Shown here: one piece after another, positions 20,734 through 48,372 of the stretch
Numbering within the stretch: the first letter of the stretch is position 1
Layout of the letters: each line of letters starts with the position of its first letter
DNA from: Chloroflexota bacterium
GTDB taxonomy: Bacteria; Chloroflexota; Dehalococcoidia; JABGRK01
Assembly (NCBI GenBank): GCA_018648325.1
Contig: JABGRK010000018.1
Coordinates: 1-64,000, forward strand
Direction: 5' to 3'
DNA length: 64,000 nt
Position numbers and translations under genes: made by a program
The notes under the pieces: generated by a model
Databases searched by the model: none
Told to the model about the DNA's origin: nothing
Seen by the model: the letters and a program-made list of their open reading frames with translations, nothing else

Positions 20734-22392
20734 CTACATGGTTTCGGGGGCGGTCATGCCCATCAGGCCAAGTACCTTGGCAAAAACGGTCTTGGCGGCG
20801 GCAACAAGTTTTAAGCGTGATGCGGTTGTTTTTGCGTCGTCGGTGACCACGCGGCACTGCTTGTAGAAGCTGTGGAATGCCGTAGCCATTTCCTGCGCAA
20901 AGTATGTCAGGTGATGCGGTTCGTGGGTGCTTGCAATCTGCTCGATGATCTCCGGCAGATAGAGCATCTTGCGAATGTAGGAGAGCTCAGCCTCATGCGT
21001 CAGCAGCGATACATCGCCGTCTGCATAGTCGATGCCTTTGTCTGCGGCCAACCTTAGTATGCTGGCAATGCGTGCGTGTGCGTACTGCACGTAGTACACG
21101 GGGTTATCGTTGGATTGCTGCACCGCCAGTTCCATATCAAAGTCCATCTGTGAATCGGCAGAGCGCATCAGGAAGAAGAATCGGCATACGTCCGGGCCTA
21201 CCTCTTCTATCAGCTCGCGCAGTGTAATCAGGTCACCAGTGCGCTTGGACACGCGTACGATCTCCTTGCCGCGCTTGAGCGTAACCAGTTGCGTGATGAT
21301 GATATGCAGGCGCTGTTCGTCGATGCCAAGGGCTGTCAGCACAGCCTTCATGCGCGATACATGGCCCTGATGATCGGCACCCCATATGTCTATGGCCTTG
21401 TCAAAGCCGCGCAAAACGAGCTTGTTGTAGTGGTAGGCCACATCGGAGGCGAAGTATGTGGGCGTGCCGTTTGTTCGCACCAGCACGTTGTCCTTATCCT
21501 CACCCAGTGAGGTGGACATGAACCACTTGGCGCCCTCTTTTTCGGCGGTGTGATTGCTCTTATCCAGCATATCCATGGCTGTGTCATACTGTCCGCTGTC
21601 AAACAGGCTGCGCTCGGAAAACCATACGTCGAACTCAATGCCCAGCGTTTTCAGATCGGACTTGATGGCATCAATAGCCTTTGTTACGCCTACGGCACCT
21701 ATTGCCTTAAGTGCATCATCTTTGGGCATGGATACATATGCATCGCCCTTTTCTTCGATGATCTGTTTTGCAAAGTCGAGGATGTAGTCTCCCATATAGC
21801 CGTCTTCCGGCATTTCACAGTCATGACCCAGGGCCTGCATATAGCGGGCATAAAGTGAGTTATAGTAAGCGTCCATCTGATTGCCGGCGTCGTTGACATA
21901 GTACTCGGATGAGACATCATAACCGGCGGATTTGAGCACGTTGGCAAGGGCGCTGCCCAGTATGGCGGCACGGCCATGGCCCACGTGTATGGGGCCGGTG
22001 GGATTGACGCTGACATATTCCAGTTGTATCTTCTGTCCATCACCCAGGTTGATATCACCAAAAGACTCTTTCTGACTGAGGACTTGCTCGACCTGACTTG
22101 CCAGCCATTTGCCGCTAAGGGTAATGTTGACAAAACCGGGGTGTGCTACGGTGACCTTTTCGATTTCATCGCAGGCCGGGATCAATCCGGCAAGTGTTTC
22201 GGCTATAACCAGCGGACTTTTGCGCATGGCACGTGATAGCTTGAGGGGCAGGCTTGAGGCATAATCGCCATGCTCCGGCTTTTGCGGGTGTTCCACCGCT
22301 ACGTCCGGGATAGCTGCTGCCGGCAACAGTTCCTTTTCAATCGCTTCTTTTACCGCTTGCCGCAGAAGCTCGGCAACTCTTTGCTTAATCAT
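20734..22392 (-). CDS. argS: Arginyl-tRNA synthetase
   Basis: This class I aminoacyl-tRNA synthetase charges tRNA(Arg). The 552-aa protein has the N-terminal additional domain, the HIGH-equivalent motif in NPTGPIHVGHGRAAILG, the ADHQGHVSRM segment and the C-terminal anticodon-binding DALR helices ending in VLGLMGM. As in many ArgRS enzymes, the KMSKS lysine motif is degenerate (VRVSKRTGD). The length is normal. The gene is alone, with dispersed-repeat copies on both sides (D downstream, B upstream). Confidence 0.93.
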   Translation of the reverse strand: MIKQRVAELLRQAVKEAIEKELLPAAAIPDVAVEHPQKPEHGDYASSLPLKLSRAMRKSPLVIAETLAGLIPACDEIEKVTVAHPGFVNITLSGKWLASQVEQVLSQKESFGDINLGDGQKIQLEYVSVNPTGPIHVGHGRAAILGSALANVLKSAGYDVSSEYYVNDAGNQMDAYYNSLYARYMQALGHDCEMPEDGYMGDYILDFAKQIIEEKGDAYVSMPKDDALKAIGAVGVTKAIDAIKSDLKTLGIEFDVWFSERSLFDSGQYDTAMDMLDKSNHTAEKEGAKWFMSTSLGEDKDNVLVRTNGTPTYFASDVAYHYNKLVLRGFDKAIDIWGADHQGHVSRMKAVLTALGIDEQRLHIIITQLVTLKRGKEIVRVSKRTGDLITLRELIEEVGPDVCRFFFLMRSADSQMDFDMELAVQQSNDNPVYYVQYAHARIASILRLAADKGIDYADGDVSLLTHEAELSYIRKMLYLPEIIEQIASTHEPHHLTYFAQEMATAFHSFYKQCRVVTDDAKTTASRLKLVAAAKTVFAKVLGLMGMTAPETM

Positions 22393-38435: not shown

Positions 38436-38814
38436 TAAAGATTTCCTCTCCTCCGACTAAGCGGCGCCAATTTTTTTATTTTTATTTTACAATAAATCTG
38501 TATTTATCGTAAACATATTGGGGATTTATTTGCATAAAACCCACTATATATATTATAGATTAAAGTAATTAGAAAATGTAGTCAAGAATACAGGCGTTTT
38601 TACCTGAAATACCCAACGATTTGATATCACGAAAATGAAAATATTAAACCCAAATAATCACACATCCACACAAAAGTTCGGCAGAATTTCTTATTGACAT
38701 TACTCTGAAGCATGTTTTATCTTATTCGTATACGATACAAACCAGTGTAAACATAACATACAACACATCTAAATGACTGGACGATGATTGAGAAGAAGTG
38801 CAGGAGGATTTGAC
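38436..38814. other. Divergent intergenic region between the carboxyltransferase and selenoprotein genes
   Basis: This 379-bp region is strongly A/T-rich and contains the promoter of the selenoprotein-molybdoenzyme operon (best candidate 38694-38723) and that of the carboxyltransferase gene on the other strand. I see no ORF, no repeat copy and no recognisable riboswitch. A short palindrome CGTATACG lies at about 38729. Confidence 0.45.
38694..38723 (+). promoter_or_regulatory. Candidate promoter of the selenoprotein operon
   Basis: A perfect TTGACA (38694-38699) has TATCTT (38718-38723) 18 nt downstream, a weak -10. It is the best fit in the long upstream region, about 90 nt before the start codon. 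Confidence 0.4.
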
Positions 38815-40464
38815 ATGGAAGCAGCAAAAACGCAGAAAGAGCAATACGAGTGTCTGGACCCACGCGGAACCACTCCTGAAAGAACCAAAATACCGCTAAC
38901 AGCGCCGCGCATCGCCAACCTTGATGGTAAAAACGTTTTAGTGGTAATGAGGGAGTCCTTCCCCAACCTGATGCCGGCAGTGCACGACGAACTGCAAAAA
39001 CAGTACCCCAAAATAAGTGCCATTTATTGGGACTTTGATGAGCATGGAGGCCTAACTGTTGAGCAGGCAAAGGAGCTTAAAATCGATGCTGCCATTGTCG
39101 GCGTCGGCTACTGATGGGGTGCCTGCGTCGCCGTTGGCGATGTTGTACGTAACCTTGAACAAGCTGATATTCCATCCATATCCATTACGTTTGAGGACAT
39201 GGCGCCAACTGCCCAGAACTACAGGCGCGAAATTCGTATGCCGGATATGCGCAACATAGTTATTCCCAGAATGACTGCACCGGAAAAATCCAGAGCATAT
39301 GCACCTCAGCTACTACCCAAGCTGACTGAACTACTAACAACGCCACTGACCGATAAAGAGCAAGCCGGTGGATCAATGGCTGAGGAGAGATACGAGAGAA
39401 TAGCGGTCAGGGGCACATCGGAGCAATGTCAGGAGTTCTTCCAGGGTGATGTGTACTGGACATCGCTCTTCTACCACAATCCTCCTGCTTTTTTGACCAA
39501 CGGGGCGCCCATTGTGCTGCCCACCGAGCAAAGAGTTAAACACATACTTACAGGAACCAGCCACAAACCGGATGAAAAGGTAGGACCATGGCCGGTGCCT
39601 GCCGATCAGAAAGAGTTTAGTGTAGAAAAAGTAGCCATAAATGCAGTAATGGCCGGTTGCAAACCGGAGCACATGCCGGCAATACTGGCTGCTGCGGAAA
39701 TGATGGCTACACCGGCAAAAAGCAGGGTCAGTTCCAGGCTGGGTGGCGCCCATACACTTGTGGGAGTCATCAGCGGACCTATGGGCCAAGAATTGATGCT
39801 GAGCACGGAACAGTTCAGCGGTGTGGGATATCGAGCGAACCATAGCATGAGATACGCCATGGAACTGATCGGGCGCAACGCAATAGGCCATTGGGGTGTC
39901 AGAGGAGAGGGAACCGGTGGCTTCTTTGCAGAGGACATCGAACACAGCCCGTGGACGCCGCTTGGTGCAGACTCCGGTTTTAAAGAAGGCGATAACGTTT
40001 TTACACTGTGTGTGGCCAATGCACCCAACGAGCGATGGATATCACCTGCGTGGTATCGAGCTCATGGCAGGTTTCTTGAAAAACTTGTGCCTGAGCTGGG
40101 CAATCTGGGCAATTCACTGGCATGCACCGTGATCATACACCCAAGTGTGGCTAACGATCTGGCCGACAAGGGCATGTCCAAAGAAGACGTACGGCAGTGG
40201 CTATGGGATAATACCACAGAAACCATGGGCCATTACAGGGACAGGACATGGTTCGGCATAATGAATTCCTTACAACGTAGAGAAGGACCATTTAACAGAT
40301 CGGAGATATTCGACCTTCCGGATGATGCAATAATACATACCTATAAGAGTCCGGAAATGATTCAGATAATTGTGGCCGGAATACCCATGGAATTCGGTTA
40401 TGTGGCAGGAGGCCCACTGTGGTTGCCAGCAGAACTTATGACATCTATCGATAAATGGAAATAG
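38815..40464 (+). CDS. Selenoprotein with an in-frame UGA (Sec100), UGSC/GrdB-like family
   Basis: A single frame runs from ATG 38815 (AGGAGG 7 nt upstream) to 40464 and is broken only by TGA at 39112-39114. Reading it as selenocysteine gives 549 aa. The UGA codon follows AAIVGVGY and precedes WGAC, then VAVGDVVRNLEQADIP, a hydrophobic strand-loop-helix like the redox site of the UGSC family and of glycine reductase selenoprotein B. Downstream, LPTEQRVKHILTGTSHKP and EKVAINAVMAGCKPEHMPAI are typical of UGSC-type proteins from memory. A SECIS-like hairpin directly follows the UGA. It is cytoplasmic, with no signal. The gene is followed after 59 nt by a molybdopterin oxidoreductase gene. The substrate is unknown; reductive cleavage or redox transfer is the family theme. 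Confidence 0.85.
39126..39142 (+). other. Bacterial SECIS-like hairpin after the in-frame UGA
   Basis: Counting the U of UGA as 1, bases 15-21 (CGUCGCC) pair with 25-31 (GGCGAUG), one G-U pair included, around the loop GUU at 22-24. The seven-pair stem, the three-base loop starting with G and its distance from the UGA match the general rules for bacterial SECIS elements bound by SelB. The E. coli-type bulged U17 is paired here. Confidence 0.65.
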
Positions 40465-40523
40465 CTACATAATGCCCATAAATGATAGTGTTTGATTTTT
40501 ATCCTACGGGGAGATTGTTTGTG

Positions 40524-43124
40524 ATGAAATCTGAAACCAGCAGCGTTATAAAAGAAGACAAGTGGGTTGCCAGCACATGTGTGATGTGCTACTCGGGTTG
40601 CAGCATTAAGGTACATGTGGTTAACGGTGTAGCCGTACAGATACTGGGAAACGCTGAGTCTCCAAACGGTGCCATAGGTGGACTGTGCCCCAAAGGAGTA
40701 TCGGGCATACAGCTACTATACGATCCCAACCGGCGAAACGTACCTCTGCGCAGAACCAATCCGGAAAAAGGTCTTTACGCGAAACCGCAATGGAAGGAAA
40801 TAAGCTGGGAAGAAGCGCTGGATGAGATTGTTGAGCGACTGCAAAAACTAAGGAAAGACGATCCAAGCAAACTCATGATCGCAGGCACCAACGTGCATGG
40901 AAAGATATGGCATGCAGCATGGGCTTTCAATGCGGCTTTTGCCACGTCCAAGGGCAGACCGAACATGGGTGGTACCGGCGGAGGGCTTCATTGTGGAGGC
41001 GGATCTCATGCAGTTACGCACCTTTATTACGGGTCATGGTCGGCAGCGCCTGATTTTGAGCACTGTAACTACGCCATATTCTGGGGCGCCAGTAAGGGAA
41101 CCGCGGCAGGACATGAAGCGGCACTGACCATGAAAAATCATGCCGAGGCCCGGGCCCGTGGTATGAAGTCTGTTTCCTTCGACCCGATGTGCCATCAATC
41201 CGGCGGCAAGGCCTCAGAGTGGGTACCACTTATACCCGGTACAGACGGAGCCATAGCCATCAGCATGATCAACGTGCTGCTCAATGAGCTTGGTATTTAC
41301 GATAAGGATTTCTTGAAGAAGAAAACCAACAGCCCCTACCTGATACGTCCTGACGGGCGGTACTTGCGCGATAAGCAAACTGGCAAGCCGATGATCTGGG
41401 ACACAGGTAGCGACAGTGCCAAGGTATTTAATGATCCGAGCATAACTGACTATGCGCTGGAAGGTAATTACGATCTGGACGGGATTGAGTATCAGCCATC
41501 ATTCCAGCTACTGAAGGAGCATGTTAAAAAGTATACGCCGGAGATGGCAGCCGAGGTCAGCACTGTTCCGGCAGATACGATCAGGCGCATAGCGCGTGAG
41601 TTCGGGGAGGCGGCCAGTATTGGCAGCACGATAAAGATTGACGGAAATCTTCTGCCTTTCAGGCCAGTATCATCGGTCATCTTCCGTGGGGGTGAGGGCC
41701 ATACCAATTCCATGCACACCTGTCTGGCCACGCATATGCTCAACATGATAGTGGGTGCGGCAGAGGTGCCCGGCGGAACGCTGGGACTGGGACCGGGCAG
41801 ACTGATGGGTTATCCTTCAACGGGCTCTCTGGCAATAACGGTGGAGGCAGATGAAGACGGATTTTTGTTCCTGCCATCGTGGTCTACCGGCGGGACTCAT
41901 TATCCAGACCCGGAACTGCCATGCAAAACACTGGGGTTAAAAGAACTGTTTCCCATGTGGGCCTTCGCCCCACTGCCCATGGCATCTGACAGCCAGGAGT
42001 TGTATCGTAAAACCGGTATGGACTACAAGATCGAAATGGCCATTATCCATGGTGCAAACCCTGTTATAAGTTGCGCCGACTGGGAAGCCATGGAAAATCT
42101 GTACAAAAACATACCGTTTATCTTTTCCTTTAATATTTTGCCTACAGAACTGGATGAAGGTTTTGCCGATATAGTTCTGCCGGACGCCTGCTATCTGGAA
42201 GCGCCCGTCTGGTGGCATGGCACCAATCCCAAGTTTCAGGCGCCTCCCGGCATGCAGGACTGGAGCTGGACTATCGGGCAGTCGGTAGTTGCGCCTCAAT
42301 ATGACAGAAGATTTGTTATGGATGTGATATTCGATATAAGCCAGCGGCTGGGAATACGCAGGGAACTCAATGACGCCCTGAATAAACAGTATCAGCTTGC
42401 CGGTGATTACGAGGTCAAACCGGATGAGCTAATAGATATGGAGCAGGTAGGTGACAGGGCGCTTCGGCAGAGGTTTGGGGAAGATCACAACTGGGAGTGG
42501 TTCAAGCAGCACGGACTGATCCGCTGGCCCAAACAGGTCCAGGAGGCGTACTGGCGCTGGTTTACAGACATAAGGGTACCCATTTATTTTGAGTGGATGG
42601 CTGACTTGGGCGAGAAAATAAAGGAAAAGGCGGAGAGCGTTGATATTCATGCCGACTGGCAGCAATATGACCCGCTGGTTAACTGGTATCCTACACCACC
42701 CATAAATGAAAAAAATCCGGAATACGATCTGTACTGTTTCTCCTATCGCGATATCCTGCATACCGGTTCGATGACCATGGAACAACCGTGGTTGGATGAA
42801 GCGAGCCATATGAATCCTTACACCTACTCCATTACCATGAACTTTGATACGGCTACTGCAAAAGGGTTAAAGGATGGCGACAGTATTTGGGTGCAAAATG
42901 CGATGGGGCGTAAACAAAAAGGGCGTTTGATACTGCTGGAAGGGCAGCATCCCCAAACCATAGCCATAGCTGCCTGTAGCGGTCACTGGATAGACGGACT
43001 ACCCATAGCCAAGGGCAAGGGGACAAACTTTGATGACCTGATGCCTATTGACCTTAAACATGTTGATCCGGTAAGCGGCAATCTTGAGGTCTCAGTTAAG
43101 GTAAAGGTCTACAAGGCAGACTAA
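40524..43124 (+). CDS. Soluble molybdopterin oxidoreductase (DMSO reductase superfamily)
   Basis: This large catalytic subunit binds bis-MGD. The N-terminus has the [4Fe-4S] set CVMCYSGC and GLCPKG (Cx2Cx3Cx27C), the YDPNRRNVPL segment and WEEALDEI; the likely Mo-ligand position is the cysteine in GGGLHCGGGSH. The C-terminal molybdopterin dinucleotide-binding domain starts near RDILHTGSMTMEQP. At 866 aa it is complete. No Tat signal is present, so it is cytoplasmic, and no iron-sulfur or membrane subunit gene follows. I chose ATG 40524 with GGGGAGA upstream; other starts are up to 14 codons earlier. It sits 59 nt after the selenoprotein gene, in the same operon. The substrate is unknown. Acetylene-hydratase-like and tungsten-dependent enzymes cannot be excluded. 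Confidence 0.85.
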   Translation: MKSETSSVIKEDKWVASTCVMCYSGCSIKVHVVNGVAVQILGNAESPNGAIGGLCPKGVSGIQLLYDPNRRNVPLRRTNPEKGLYAKPQWKEISWEEALDEIVERLQKLRKDDPSKLMIAGTNVHGKIWHAAWAFNAAFATSKGRPNMGGTGGGLHCGGGSHAVTHLYYGSWSAAPDFEHCNYAIFWGASKGTAAGHEAALTMKNHAEARARGMKSVSFDPMCHQSGGKASEWVPLIPGTDGAIAISMINVLLNELGIYDKDFLKKKTNSPYLIRPDGRYLRDKQTGKPMIWDTGSDSAKVFNDPSITDYALEGNYDLDGIEYQPSFQLLKEHVKKYTPEMAAEVSTVPADTIRRIAREFGEAASIGSTIKIDGNLLPFRPVSSVIFRGGEGHTNSMHTCLATHMLNMIVGAAEVPGGTLGLGPGRLMGYPSTGSLAITVEADEDGFLFLPSWSTGGTHYPDPELPCKTLGLKELFPMWAFAPLPMASDSQELYRKTGMDYKIEMAIIHGANPVISCADWEAMENLYKNIPFIFSFNILPTELDEGFADIVLPDACYLEAPVWWHGTNPKFQAPPGMQDWSWTIGQSVVAPQYDRRFVMDVIFDISQRLGIRRELNDALNKQYQLAGDYEVKPDELIDMEQVGDRALRQRFGEDHNWEWFKQHGLIRWPKQVQEAYWRWFTDIRVPIYFEWMADLGEKIKEKAESVDIHADWQQYDPLVNWYPTPPINEKNPEYDLYCFSYRDILHTGSMTMEQPWLDEASHMNPYTYSITMNFDTATAKGLKDGDSIWVQNAMGRKQKGRLILLEGQHPQTIAIAACSGHWIDGLPIAKGKGTNFDDLMPIDLKHVDPVSGNLEVSVKVKVYKAD

Positions 43125-43297: not shown

Positions 43298-43326
43298 ATA
43301 TGGACCATATTCGTGAGCAACAAGAT

Positions 43327-46300
43327 ATGAAGTTTGTGAAAATAACTGTATATTTGCTGATGGCATCATATCTACTTTTTCTATGGCCGTCACATGCCTC
43401 ATTAAACAACCCTACAAATGCGAGCAGACAAGGCAATCAAAGCATAACGCCAAACGATTTAGCACAGGTTGACTCTCTTGCAATGCCAAATGAAAAAATA
43501 CTAACACCCTCTGGTATCCCGCCTGCATCGGGTAATAGTCCAGGATTTATACATAACGATGCACGGGTAGCGCCCCCATCGCATATAAATCAACCAAGCC
43601 ATTGGCAACCATGGGCACAGGCACCGGAGCCGGAATACAACAATCAGGCCGAGTATATGATTGGTAGTGTGGCAGTTTCGGTTATTTTCCCGGAAAGCGA
43701 CGGGGGTATTGATACTGAAACTGAAGATTGGGATCAAAATCGGATTGATACCTGTTTGGCTGAAATAACAGATGGTCTGACCTGGTGGGAGAACCAGGAA
43801 CCGAATGCAAACCTCAGCTTTACAATTGAGTCCTACGGAGCAAAAGCAACAAGTTATGAACCAATCACACGGGACAGTGCGGACCAAAACCTCTGGATTC
43901 CAGAAATCATGGCGGGATTGGGATATAATTCCGGCACTGAATTTGACAGGGTTCGCAGTTTTAATGATGCAATACGAAACCAGAAAAACACTGATTGGGT
44001 ATACACAATATTTATTGTGGACAGTCTAAACGATGCGGATGGATATTTTGCTGACAACGCAATTGCTTATGCCTACTATGGAGGGCCTTTTACAGTATTA
44101 AGTTATGATAACGCTGGTTGGGGCATAGATCGGATGGACCTGGTGGCAGCACATGAGACCGGTCATATTTTCTGGGCTACTGACGAGTACACATTACCAG
44201 GACAGTATGCCGGCTATTTAAATGTTTTAGAGATTGACGATGCTGCTTGCATGATGAATCATAACACTCTCGAATTATGTATAGCAACCAAAGGCCAGAT
44301 TGGTTGGAGGGACAGTGATGCAGACTCCATTCTGGACCCTATAGATACATTCCCCAATAGCACACTGATTCCATATTCACCAGATCCAGCCAGTAGTAAT
44401 ACTTTGATCTATAACGGAACTGCGGAGGATGTACCACTGGCTAACAACAACCCTTTAAATTGGAATGCAGGAAACGACGTAACTATTAATACCATAACCA
44501 ATGTCCAATATAGAATTGATGGAGGAAACTGGCAAAGCACTACCAGCACCGACGGAGCATTTGATGAAGTATCAGAGTCATATACGTTTACTACCTCAGC
44601 CCTGACTAACGGCAATCATACAATAGAAACAAGGGCACAAAATTCCGTTGGCAATTGGGAAAGCTCATACGCATCAGATAGTGTGTTTGTTGATAATTCT
44701 GCACCCACGCTGTCGATTCAAAATGTACCCGATCTCATAAACTCGCTTGTAAATATTGGTGGAACAGCAGCAGATGATTCGGGAATACATCGGGTAGAAC
44801 TGACAATCAAAAACACAATTGACTCTACCTATTGGAACGGCAGTACGTGGAAAAGCACTTTCTGGGATGCCACAACTATAGATTTATCAGATGACGTTGG
44901 CAAATATACATCACTCGCTTTTGATTTGGAAGGCAAACCTGCCATCAGCTATCAGGACACCACCAATATGGACCTAAAATATGCACACTGGAATGGCATT
45001 TCATGGGACATTCAAACCGTAGATTCAACTGGCAATACCGGTTATTTTACTTCACTGGCTTTTGATGTACGTGGCAATCCGGCTATCAGTTACATTAATG
45101 ATTTGGGAGATTATTTGAAATTCGCCAGATGGAGTGGCACCAATTGGAATATAGAAATAATCGACGCCACAACTTATGTATATGGCTATACTTCCCTGGC
45201 GTTTGATGATAATGATGATCCCGCAATAAGTTATTATGATTGGATTAACAAAAATCTGAAGTTTGCAGCATTGAACGGGATTTCGTGGGTTACAGAAACT
45301 GTTGATTCCCCCGGGGATGTCGGTAACTATAACTCACTGGCGTTTGATGCCAATGGCAATCCAGCTATTAGTTACTACGATGCCATTAATGGAAACCTAA
45401 AATATGCAATTTGGAATGGCAGCATCTGGGCTACCTCAACGATAGACTCCGCAGGCGACATTGGCTACTACAACTCACTGGCCTTCGATACTAGCGGAAA
45501 TGCTGCTATCAGCTACTATGATCTAACCAACACCGCTCTTAAATATGCGGCCTGGAACGGGAGTTCCTGGGATATACAGTCAGTGGATACTGATGGCAAT
45601 GTAGGATGGTATAGCTCTCTTGCCTTTAATAGCAACGGCAACCCGACGATCAGCTATAAAGACATTGACAATGGACACTTAAAATACGCAATTTGGAATG
45701 GCAGTACCTGGGATATTACTTCGATCGATTCATCGGGCAACGTTGGCAGCTATTGTTCTCTTGCCTTTGATAATGATGGCAACCCGGCTCTTAGCTATTA
45801 CGACTGGAATAACGGCGACCTGAAGTATGCTTCGGTCGGTTGGCTGCAAGCCACCGGTACAACAACATGGACATACACAATGCCATCACTGACCGATGGC
45901 ATATCATACAGTATCACGGCAAGGGCCATTGACAACAGCGGCAGTGCTTCATTGTACTACTTAGAGAGCTTCACTTTTGATACATCCAACCCGACAATGA
46001 CCATCGTTGCCAGTGATGTGACGTTGAGCGATAGCAATGTTGGAGTCGACACATTTACTGTCACTGCTACCTACTCGGAAGCTATGGACAACAGCCAGAT
46101 ACCATCTATTACCTTTGACCCGGCACTCGCTACAACACTAACCAACCCCAGCGGTGCATGGAGCGCAGGCAATACCATATACACATGGACCTACGATATT
46201 GAGGATGCAGGTGTAACCATTGTCGACGTAGATGTCTCAGTTGATGGAGGCAAAGATATCGCAGGTAACACGCAAATTGCTAAAACCAACACCAATTATA

Positions 46301-48372
46301 TCGATCTTAATACAACCAATCCAACAGCGGTAATAGAGGCCAGCGATGTGGCCATCTACGATGGCGATGTGAGAGTTGATGCCTTTACTGTAACCGTGAC
46401 CTACTCTGAAACTATGGACTCCGTCCAGATTCCCACACTGATCTTCGATCCTGCACTGACCACCAGCCTGACCAACCCCAGCGGTGCATGGAGCGTAGGC
46501 GATACCATATACACTTGGACCTACGATATCGAAAATGCAGGTATCACTATTACCGACGTAGATGTGACGGTGGATGGAGGAAAAGACATAGCAGGCAATG
46601 CGCAGGTTGCCAAAACCAATACTGATTACATTGATATCGATACTACCAATCCAACGGCGGTGATAGAAGCCAGCGATGTGGCCATCTACGATGGTGATGT
46701 GGGAGTTGATGCATTTACATTGACCGCCACTTTTAGTGAGACGATGGACGTCAGCCAGATACCAGCACTGACCTTCGATCCTGCACTAACCACAACACTG
46801 ACCAATCCAAGTGGGACATGGAGCGTCGGCGACACAGTATATACCTGGACCTACGATATCGAAGATGCGGGGATAGCTATTGCCGACGTAGATGTCTTGG
46901 TTGACGGCGGAGTAGATATTGCAGGCAATGCGCAGGTTGCCAAAACCAATACTGATTACATTGATATCGATACTACCAATCCAACGGCGGTGATAGAAGC
47001 CAGCGATGTGGCCATCTACGATGGTGATGTGGGAGTTGATGCATTTACATTGACCGCCACTTTTAGTGAGACGATGGACGTCAGCCAGATACCAGCACTG
47101 ACCTTCGATCCTGCACTAACCACAACACTGACCAATCCAAGTGGGACATGGAGCGTCGGCGACACAGTATATACCTGGACCTATGATATCGAAGATACCG
47201 GTGTCACAATAAGCGATGTGGATGTGACGGTGGATGGAGGAAAAGATGTGGCGGGCAATGCGCAGATAACCAAAACCAACACTGATTACATAAATGTCGA
47301 TACAGCCGATCCAACCATCGCTATAACAGACATCCCGGATAATGTGGCTTCATTACCTGTGGTAAATGGAACAGCATCTGATGAGAGCGGAATAACCAAG
47401 GTTAAGATAAAAATAGAAAACAGCACTAATAGCACATATTGGAATGGGAGCACATGGTCAGATAGCTTTGGCTATTTGGATGCAATCGGAACTACTTCGT
47501 GGTCATATACCATGCCTGCGCTGGAAGGGAAAAATCAATATACCCTCAAAGCTTATGCAATTGACAATGTGGGCAATTTTGCCCCTATAGCCTCGGATGA
47601 CTTTACATTCTATAATTCTGTGCAAGCAGATTTTAGCGCCTCCACAACAGATGCTATTATCAACCAGACAGTTGAGTTTACCGATATATCAACAGGTGAC
47701 GCGCTATCATGGAGTTGGGACTTCGGTGCCGACGATTCATCAAATAGCACCAGACAAAACCCGTCATATGCGTATGCGGATTCTGGAACGTACACTGTCA
47801 CTCTAACAGTATCCAACCCTGCTTCCAGCGATACAGTAACAAAAGTAAGCTATGTAACCATTTTGCTGGCAATCACCACTGTTGAGCCAGATACAGATTC
47901 CACGGTCAAAACGGAAGACGGAAAAGTCAATATCGAAATCCCTGCAGGGACTGTGACCGATCAAACCACGATAAAGATTAGCCAGTCTAAGGTAAGTGAT
48001 ATTGCTCCACTCAATCCCGGATTCAGACTTGGCGCCAACTATTTCAACATTGATGGCATAACACTGCTGGAAAAAGAAATAATTATCACCATGAATTATA
48101 CCGACGAAGATTTGGCGTTGACCGAAGGAAACATAGGCCGATTGAAATTGTCTTATTATGATAAAGATGCTCAAGAGTGGGTAATCTTGCCGACCACTGT
48201 AAACACCGATACCAAGACAGTAACTGCCAGAACAACACACCTCAGTACTTGGGCAGTACAGGTTGCCCCCAAAGCTACCTACCTGTGGCTATTGCTAGTT
48301 ATGGTAATATTGGCAACTGGCGCCATTGCAACTTTTGTACTCGTTTTACACAAACGTAGGGTTGGGACGTAA
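43327..48372 (+). CDS. Giant secreted protein: zincin motif, propeller-like repeats, Ig-like repeats, PKD, C-terminal anchor
   Basis: This 1681-aa protein has a signal peptide (MKFVKITVYLLMASYLLFLW), then a domain with the zinc-protease motif HETGHIFWATDEY (H276, E277, H280, with D286 as possible third ligand), like the M64 HExGH...DEY pattern. It next has about seven repeats of 45 residues with SLAFDxxGNPAISYYD (about residues 513-837, one per beta-propeller blade), four 110-residue Ig-like repeats (about 886-1325), a PKD domain (about 1432-1514) with WDFGADDSS, a ZU5-like beta domain and a final helix (about 1652-1674) followed by HKRRVGT. It is therefore anchored at the cell surface with the protease facing out. 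The peptide substrate is unknown, and metal binding is inferred. Confidence 0.85.
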   Translation: MKFVKITVYLLMASYLLFLWPSHASLNNPTNASRQGNQSITPNDLAQVDSLAMPNEKILTPSGIPPASGNSPGFIHNDARVAPPSHINQPSHWQPWAQAPEPEYNNQAEYMIGSVAVSVIFPESDGGIDTETEDWDQNRIDTCLAEITDGLTWWENQEPNANLSFTIESYGAKATSYEPITRDSADQNLWIPEIMAGLGYNSGTEFDRVRSFNDAIRNQKNTDWVYTIFIVDSLNDADGYFADNAIAYAYYGGPFTVLSYDNAGWGIDRMDLVAAHETGHIFWATDEYTLPGQYAGYLNVLEIDDAACMMNHNTLELCIATKGQIGWRDSDADSILDPIDTFPNSTLIPYSPDPASSNTLIYNGTAEDVPLANNNPLNWNAGNDVTINTITNVQYRIDGGNWQSTTSTDGAFDEVSESYTFTTSALTNGNHTIETRAQNSVGNWESSYASDSVFVDNSAPTLSIQNVPDLINSLVNIGGTAADDSGIHRVELTIKNTIDSTYWNGSTWKSTFWDATTIDLSDDVGKYTSLAFDLEGKPAISYQDTTNMDLKYAHWNGISWDIQTVDSTGNTGYFTSLAFDVRGNPAISYINDLGDYLKFARWSGTNWNIEIIDATTYVYGYTSLAFDDNDDPAISYYDWINKNLKFAALNGISWVTETVDSPGDVGNYNSLAFDANGNPAISYYDAINGNLKYAIWNGSIWATSTIDSAGDIGYYNSLAFDTSGNAAISYYDLTNTALKYAAWNGSSWDIQSVDTDGNVGWYSSLAFNSNGNPTISYKDIDNGHLKYAIWNGSTWDITSIDSSGNVGSYCSLAFDNDGNPALSYYDWNNGDLKYASVGWLQATGTTTWTYTMPSLTDGISYSITARAIDNSGSASLYYLESFTFDTSNPTMTIVASDVTLSDSNVGVDTFTVTATYSEAMDNSQIPSITFDPALATTLTNPSGAWSAGNTIYTWTYDIEDAGVTIVDVDVSVDGGKDIAGNTQIAKTNTNYIDLNTTNPTAVIEASDVAIYDGDVRVDAFTVTVTYSETMDSVQIPTLIFDPALTTSLTNPSGAWSVGDTIYTWTYDIENAGITITDVDVTVDGGKDIAGNAQVAKTNTDYIDIDTTNPTAVIEASDVAIYDGDVGVDAFTLTATFSETMDVSQIPALTFDPALTTTLTNPSGTWSVGDTVYTWTYDIEDAGIAIADVDVLVDGGVDIAGNAQVAKTNTDYIDIDTTNPTAVIEASDVAIYDGDVGVDAFTLTATFSETMDVSQIPALTFDPALTTTLTNPSGTWSVGDTVYTWTYDIEDTGVTISDVDVTVDGGKDVAGNAQITKTNTDYINVDTADPTIAITDIPDNVASLPVVNGTASDESGITKVKIKIENSTNSTYWNGSTWSDSFGYLDAIGTTSWSYTMPALEGKNQYTLKAYAIDNVGNFAPIASDDFTFYNSVQADFSASTTDAIINQTVEFTDISTGDALSWSWDFGADDSSNSTRQNPSYAYADSGTYTVTLTVSNPASSDTVTKVSYVTILLAITTVEPDTDSTVKTEDGKVNIEIPAGTVTDQTTIKISQSKVSDIAPLNPGFRLGANYFNIDGITLLEKEIIITMNYTDEDLALTEGNIGRLKLSYYDKDAQEWVILPTTVNTDTKTVTARTTHLSTWAVQVAPKATYLWLLLVMVILATGAIATFVLVLHKRRVGT
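44862..45840 (+). repeat. Seven tandem propeller-like repeats within the giant protein gene
   Basis: About seven units of roughly 45 codons each carry SLAFD..GNPAISY..(N)xxLKYAxWNGSxW. Seven copies are the number expected for a closed seven-bladed propeller. The units are diverged at DNA level. Confidence 0.7.
45982..47311 (+). repeat. Four tandem Ig-like repeats, 330-bp period
   Basis: Four units of 110 codons share NPTAVIEASDVAIYDGDV and TNTDYID. Units 3 and 4 share an unbroken identical tract of about 263 bp (46591-46853 with 46921-47183), evidence of recent duplication. Confidence 0.8.

Follow-up and report, generated by a model that had tools for sequence, protein, structure and literature searches.

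The gene at 38815..40464 on the forward strand of the window, the 64,000 nt of Chloroflexota DNA analyzed here, almost certainly reads an internal UGA as selenocysteine (Sec), as judged from sequence comparison, and we are highly confident that it makes a single 549-residue selenoprotein, Sec being inserted at the UGA of codon 100 by SelB and a hairpin directly downstream. Together with its counterpart in a congener (the assembly of another species), the protein is, by its sequence and branch position, an outlying member of the UGSC family, fused to a second domain. The selenoprotein reading, proposed in an earlier note on this DNA, is borne out by the open frame, the family score of the read-through product, the Sec machinery of the genome, the TGA conserved in the congener, the SECIS-like hairpin, and the Cys homologues. 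The best explanation overall, held with good though not full confidence, is an outlying two-domain UGSC selenoprotein working by the redox mechanism outlined below.

The read-through translation ends in TAG, and an AGGAGG resembling a Shine–Dalgarno sequence is located at 38802..38807 (+), with the ATG 7 nt further on; the congener gene likewise carries AGGAGG 5′ of its ATG. The frame contains a single TGA (39112..39114, +), preceded by 99 sense codons and followed by 449, and is open on both sides as had been stated. The congener protein is 81% identical and has TGA at the same codon, and TGA occupies one column in 35/35 rows of the alignment of relatives (A2). As the A2 rows were chosen mostly for a reported TGA, the evidence lies in the shared column and motif, not in the count. 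Since the TGA recurs in another species at this identity and falls in the same A2 column, a sequencing error is unlikely to be its source, and the suspicion that position 39112 might really read TGC or TGT is contradicted by the congener's TGA (assemblies were compared, not reads). Between window and congener, NG86 estimates were dN 0.143 and dS 1.08 before the TGA, and dN 0.111 and dS 2.78 after it, dS being near saturation, while the mismatches per codon position numbered 16/10/42 and 63/38/231, respectively; by this comparison coding selection acts in one frame across the TGA.

The low dN/dS on both sides of the TGA argues against an ordinary stop, whether in a pseudogene or in a pair of cistrons divided by the TGA, the C-terminal one translated from the ATG at 39199. 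This ATG is present and would give a product of 421 aa, and in relatives the C-terminal domain is often encoded by a separate gene without TGA; however, the GAGG in front of it ends just 2 nt before the ATG, which makes a poor ribosome site and agrees with the previous remark that the downstream part has no good start, and these GAGG-ATG bases are codons for Glu-Asp-Met common to the window gene and the congener. Moreover, among the matches listed, those without TGA start no earlier than residue 211 (the ATG is residue 129), from which it follows that the C-terminal domain also exists alone; a split at the TGA would sever the UGSC domain right in the active site, Cys homologues have Cys in the TGA column, and no homologue ending at the TGA position, the kind that the earlier note had considered, was met among the loci read. 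We regard an ordinary stop as very improbable. Still less credible is that a suppressor or an altered code gives UGA the meaning of another residue (Trp or Cys). The frame would be open under such a code, but TGA is the true stop of 3 of the 21 window ORFs checked, therefore no change of the genetic code is indicated; in addition, the genome contains the Sec machinery, its SelD likewise has an in-frame TGA, and the column is Cys, not Trp, in the Cys homologues.

The assembly to which the window belongs, as contig C9, spans 2.0 Mb and is 93% complete; profile searches of it detected SelB (342.9 bits), SelA (565.2 bits), and SelD (394.3 bits), all over cut-off, along with a tRNA-Sec of 71.1 bits (next best 49.4; gathering score 47). 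Consequently, selA, selB, selC, and selD are all present, and a genome without selB and selC, which had been named as a possible objection, is excluded. SelD, the gene mentioned above, lies at C9:73690, just beyond the window. The SelB profile found matches in 100/100 genomes and 14/14 controls, over cut-off in 60/100 and 2/14, respectively; the matches under cut-off presumably belong to related GTPases, so just scores over cut-off were counted. Similarly, as 5/14 controls passed the tRNA-Sec gathering score, we relied on matches of 66–73 bits. Among 12 genomes with UGA sites, several of them incomplete (62–98%), SelB was over cut-off in 11 (not in G046), SelA in 10 (not in G001, the congener, nor in G010), and tRNA-Sec was over the gathering score in 9 (not in G010, G028, and G046; at most 150 candidates scored per genome). 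These gaps leave the odds of the selenoprotein reading as they were, since all four parts are present in the genome of the window itself. G028, G010, and G046 each carry several UGA sites of the UGSC family, and their tRNA-Sec gap may reflect candidates that escaped the search, incompleteness of the assemblies, or a tRNA of unusual type.

Folding of the RNA and alignment with the congener pointed to a SECIS-like hairpin at 39125..39143 (+), a putative SelB site, with an 8-bp stem, an apical GUU at 39133–39135, and its centre approximately 22 nt past the T of the TGA. The 40 nt from the UGA reached −16.9 kcal/mol (z −2.51), and 2/200 shuffles were as stable; the congener has the same hairpin, which alone is not unusually stable (z −0.94; 32/200 shuffles). 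For 46 UGA sites from the 12 genomes, which include the window and the congener and many of which are paralogues within one genome, the mean z was −1.38 relative to positions elsewhere in those genes. A stem of ≥5 bp centred 22 to 24.5 nt from the T of the TGA, a range set after seeing the family, occurred at 35/46 sites, where 2.2 were expected from its frequency of 4.7% at 20,850 control positions, and 11/46 sites were without a hairpin under this rule. The window hairpin lies in the longest DNA run identical to the congener, 41 nt at gene positions 289–329 with the TGA at 298–300, the next longest being 23 nt. All 11 degenerate codons among codons 97–109 are unchanged versus 211/413 changed gene-wide (p 3.3e-4 for this fixed place); for a synonymously unchanged run at any place in the gene the signal is weak (permutation p 0.07), and for 13 identical codons in a row the permutation p was 0.003. 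An Rfam search of 38500–40500 gave no match.

The UGSC domain covers residues 13–175 (38851..39339, +). The read-through protein matched Pfam PF24696 with 48.1 bits (E 1.9e-12; cut-off 25), while of the halves alone, the 99-aa piece gave no match and the 449-aa piece gave 14.6 bits (E 0.036), below the cut-off. The NCBIfam equivalog NF041046, with a cut-off of 125, was not reached by the read-through protein (32.3 bits) or by the downstream piece alone (19.7 bits, E 6.8e-4). Thus, the UGSC-like character suggested previously holds at the Pfam level and not at the level of NF041046. The accompanying suggestion of a GrdB-like protein is not supported: at E up to 1 the Pfam scan returned just UGSC and a weak HGD-D match, with GrdB/PrdB (PF07355) absent, and we do not regard the protein as GrdB. 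A GrdB family search of the genome had no match either, but it had none in any control genome and is uninformative alone. One gene with PF24696 was found in the window's genome, and a PDB sequence search with the protein gave no match at E up to 1.

Matches to the window protein were obtained in 33/100 relatives, and among the matches listed, every one spanning residue 100 holds TGA. From 40 loci, taken mostly with TGA, 53 matching ORFs were collected, of which 46 contain a Sec site and the other 7 are C-domains alone. Searches of 393 genomes of the class (E 1e-37) and 400 of the phylum (E 1e-36) added no close relative, viral contigs yielded none, and two short peptide patterns, which reach close relatives alone, retrieved the congener only from GTDB contigs. 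Twenty-three plasmid records had matches, and 12 of the 15 regions opened contain Cys (CGSC or CSTC) where the relatives have TGA, so that Sec and Cys are exchanged at the active site; the Cys forms belong to the bacteria Variovorax (2), Neorhizobium, Arthrobacter, and Roseovarius, and to the haloarchaea Haloterrigena, Natrinema (2), Halostagnicola, Halorientalis, Halalkalicoccus, and Halosolutus. The Paracoccus ferrooxidans plasmid pFER4 bears a UGSC gene with an in-frame TGA (L110:4357-4926), annotated as two hypothetical proteins, and selB is located approximately 4.4 kb downstream on the same plasmid. A fused homologue on a Sporomusa termitida plasmid (L107:5305-7029), adjoining an FAD-dependent oxidoreductase gene, lacks Sec and Cys alike at the active site, which reads GDMGTSS, and therefore speaks against one universal redox role. 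A quick one-strand scan of a Haladaptatus region detected no UGSC-type motif. The homologue on the Neorhizobium galegae VafX2 plasmid (L084:5908-7576) is annotated as two overlapping pieces, and in four other Neorhizobium records the homologue matches as one piece. Five genomes (G022, G028, G029, G045, and G046) have at least 14 to 16 family matches each, an unusual expansion.

The motif UWGAC, which the earlier note had set apart from UGSC as a possible mark of a distinct subgroup, proved to be rare. Both window and congener have Ala at U+3 and Cys at U+4 (Cys104, codon 39124..39126, +), while the U+3 Cys is present in 33/33 other rows of A2; among the 46 UGA sites the spacing is UxxC in 43, UxxxC in 2 (this pair), and UxC in 1 (L051). 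The other 33 rows have 56 near-invariant columns, of which 37 are retained by the pair; the 19 changed in one or both members include C103, replaced by Ala, and R347, an Arg standing at 346 in both. Maximum-likelihood analysis of 40 rows gave the pair a stem branch of 2.54 (support 100/100), which upholds the subgroup, though the meeting of long branches leaves the exact position of the pair uncertain. UWGAC may have arisen by insertion of Trp101 with the loss of one residue further on, or by a shift of the Cys. The L051 relative (L051:2991-4523), with UGC (Sec-x-Cys), indicates that the motif spacing varies in the opposite direction, too. The literature search found no paper on a UxxxC motif with selenocysteine; as far as the literature was searched, the selenoprotein and its fusion are of an already known kind, and what is new is the UxxxC motif together with this deeply branching outlier pair.

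The C-terminal domain extends over approximately residues 187–549 (39373..40461, +; the boundary is estimated) and contains the motif MAGCxPExMP with Cys282. Pfam and PDB gave no relative of it, and none was recognized among the best 50 of 1161 Foldseek matches. In the AlphaFold2 model (mean pLDDT 77.3, pTM 0.79) the Sec domain is predicted to consist of five alternating strand-helix units, residue 100 lying between strand 92–98 and helix 101–116. Various alpha/beta folds were represented in the best 50 of 1161 Foldseek matches, flavodoxin, flavodiiron, and receiver proteins included, and thioredoxin was absent from them; no match had E < 0.001. The model thereby leans, without settling the matter, toward a flavodoxin-like Sec domain and not the thioredoxin-like fold suggested for UGSC in the accessible part of PMC2398784.

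A gene for a molybdopterin oxidoreductase with a Molybdop_Fe4S4 domain (40524..43124, +; identified from the ORF list, Pfam, NCBIfam, and sequence search) follows in the same direction 59 nt downstream of the selenoprotein gene, with an earlier ATG at 40482, and is a possible operon partner. By sequence, the solved structures closest to it are those of ArrA, thiosulfate reductase, and acetylene hydratase, and no signal peptide was seen by eye. The adjacency may be due to chance because the genome has three molybdopterin paralogues of 48–52% identity (G000:C4:31058, C2:140066, and C7:159191). It was seen once, the congener's contig ending 47 nt past the stop codon, and the congener's best oxidoreductase match to the molybdopterin enzyme is 52% identical, a value also reached by a paralogue in the genome of the window. 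We consider a partnership of the two proteins possible but somewhat doubtful. The 1690-residue ORF at 43300–48372 contains a PKD domain as well as several types of repeated segment. The gene directly upstream of the congener's selenoprotein gene encodes a DUF6506 protein (L063:2003-2317), and the window's upstream genes differ. A promoter scan found 9 sites versus 7.6 expected, therefore no promoter is claimed.

Genes for TrxB or TrxR-like flavoproteins stand beside the family in 5/15 plasmid regions, once with trxA: trxB is annotated in Variovorax SRS16, Arthrobacter (the case with trxA), and Roseovarius, and in V. boronicumulans and Haloterrigena a CxxCD motif led us to class the flavoprotein as TrxR-like. 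Among the neighbours of the window's selenoprotein gene we saw no TrxR-like gene. Around the Chloroflexota relatives, SBP_bac_5 solute-binding proteins accounted for 16 of the 97 neighbour ORFs scanned (203 were listed, including those of the window and the congener). The TrxR genes and these solute-binding proteins together suggest that an organic compound is taken up and reduced, NADPH supplying the electrons via thioredoxin reductase.

A ribosome arriving at UGA 39112 would meet SelB carrying Sec-tRNA on the hairpin, and selenocysteine is inserted, as the sequence evidence strongly supports. The product is an outlying UGSC superfamily member joined to its C-terminal domain. In the mechanism we propose for it, Sec100, at the junction of a strand with the following helix, would be the nucleophile, attacking or reducing a small organic substrate lodged between the domains. 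Sec100 and Cys104 would then form a selenylsulfide, to be reset by a system of the thioredoxin/thioredoxin-reductase type. We lean toward this chemistry with modest confidence; the work of the protein is likely that of a selenol/thiol reductase fed by a thioredoxin-type system, and the Sec–Cys dyad is not proven because the U+3 Cys has been lost.

That loss, along with the 19 changed near-invariant columns, Arg347 among them, would also fit a Sec protein having no redox dyad, where Sec100 acts alone or serves as a metal ligand with Cys104 or Cys282, and UxxxC marks a changed chemistry. CX3C pairs are copper sites in Sco-type proteins. On the other hand, in both species a Cys stands one residue further on, about one helical turn from Sec in the model, and the G-A-C of the motif resembles the family's UGAC variant moved by one residue, thus we rate the dyad-free protein as unlikely, though deserving attention. 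Similarly speculative is a broader proposal, in which the pair would found a new selenoenzyme subfamily, defined by the re-spaced UxxxC and a second domain stripped of family-invariant residues, and would work with the molybdopterin enzyme, itself without an evident export signal, in a two-step reduction dependent on selenium and molybdenum (or tungsten).

In the accessible portions of PMC13188914, PMC9312934, and PMC2398784, UGSC is listed without a function of its own, and the data assembled here offer several handles on the family: the second domain, fused or adjoining, the thioredoxin reductase genes beside the family in several phyla, the Sec domain modelled as flavodoxin-like rather than thioredoxin-like, and the at least 14 to 16 copies in some relatives. 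The outlier pair indicates which features of the UGSC active site can change, and annotation can cut UGSC genes at the UGA, as on the Paracoccus plasmid.

According to the accessible text of PMC2398784, UGSC is a major selenoprotein family of the Global Ocean Sampling data, among the most abundant there, with 255 Sec and 21 Cys sequences. The window protein is like UGSC (PF24696/NF041046) in having Sec after a strand ending in VGVG and before a helix with a conserved Glu115, in its Pfam match over the cut-off, in the downstream hairpin, and in the Cys replacements found elsewhere. In contrast, the PF24696 scores of the window and congener proteins, 45.7 and 49.5 bits, lie below the 147–184 bits of the seven other matches, the motif is UxxxC and not the UxxC of the family, and the protein stays below the NF041046 cut-off. 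PrdB, for which the same portion of PMC2398784 lists a UxxC motif, and GrdB resemble it in being Sec proteins, but the window protein has no match to their Pfam family, PF07355. A further likeness, drawn by description, is to the UGSC/Unknown_1 fusion mentioned in the accessible text of PMC2398784, where UGSC is likewise joined to a conserved domain and the domains fused to it hold, as a rule, a conserved Cys.
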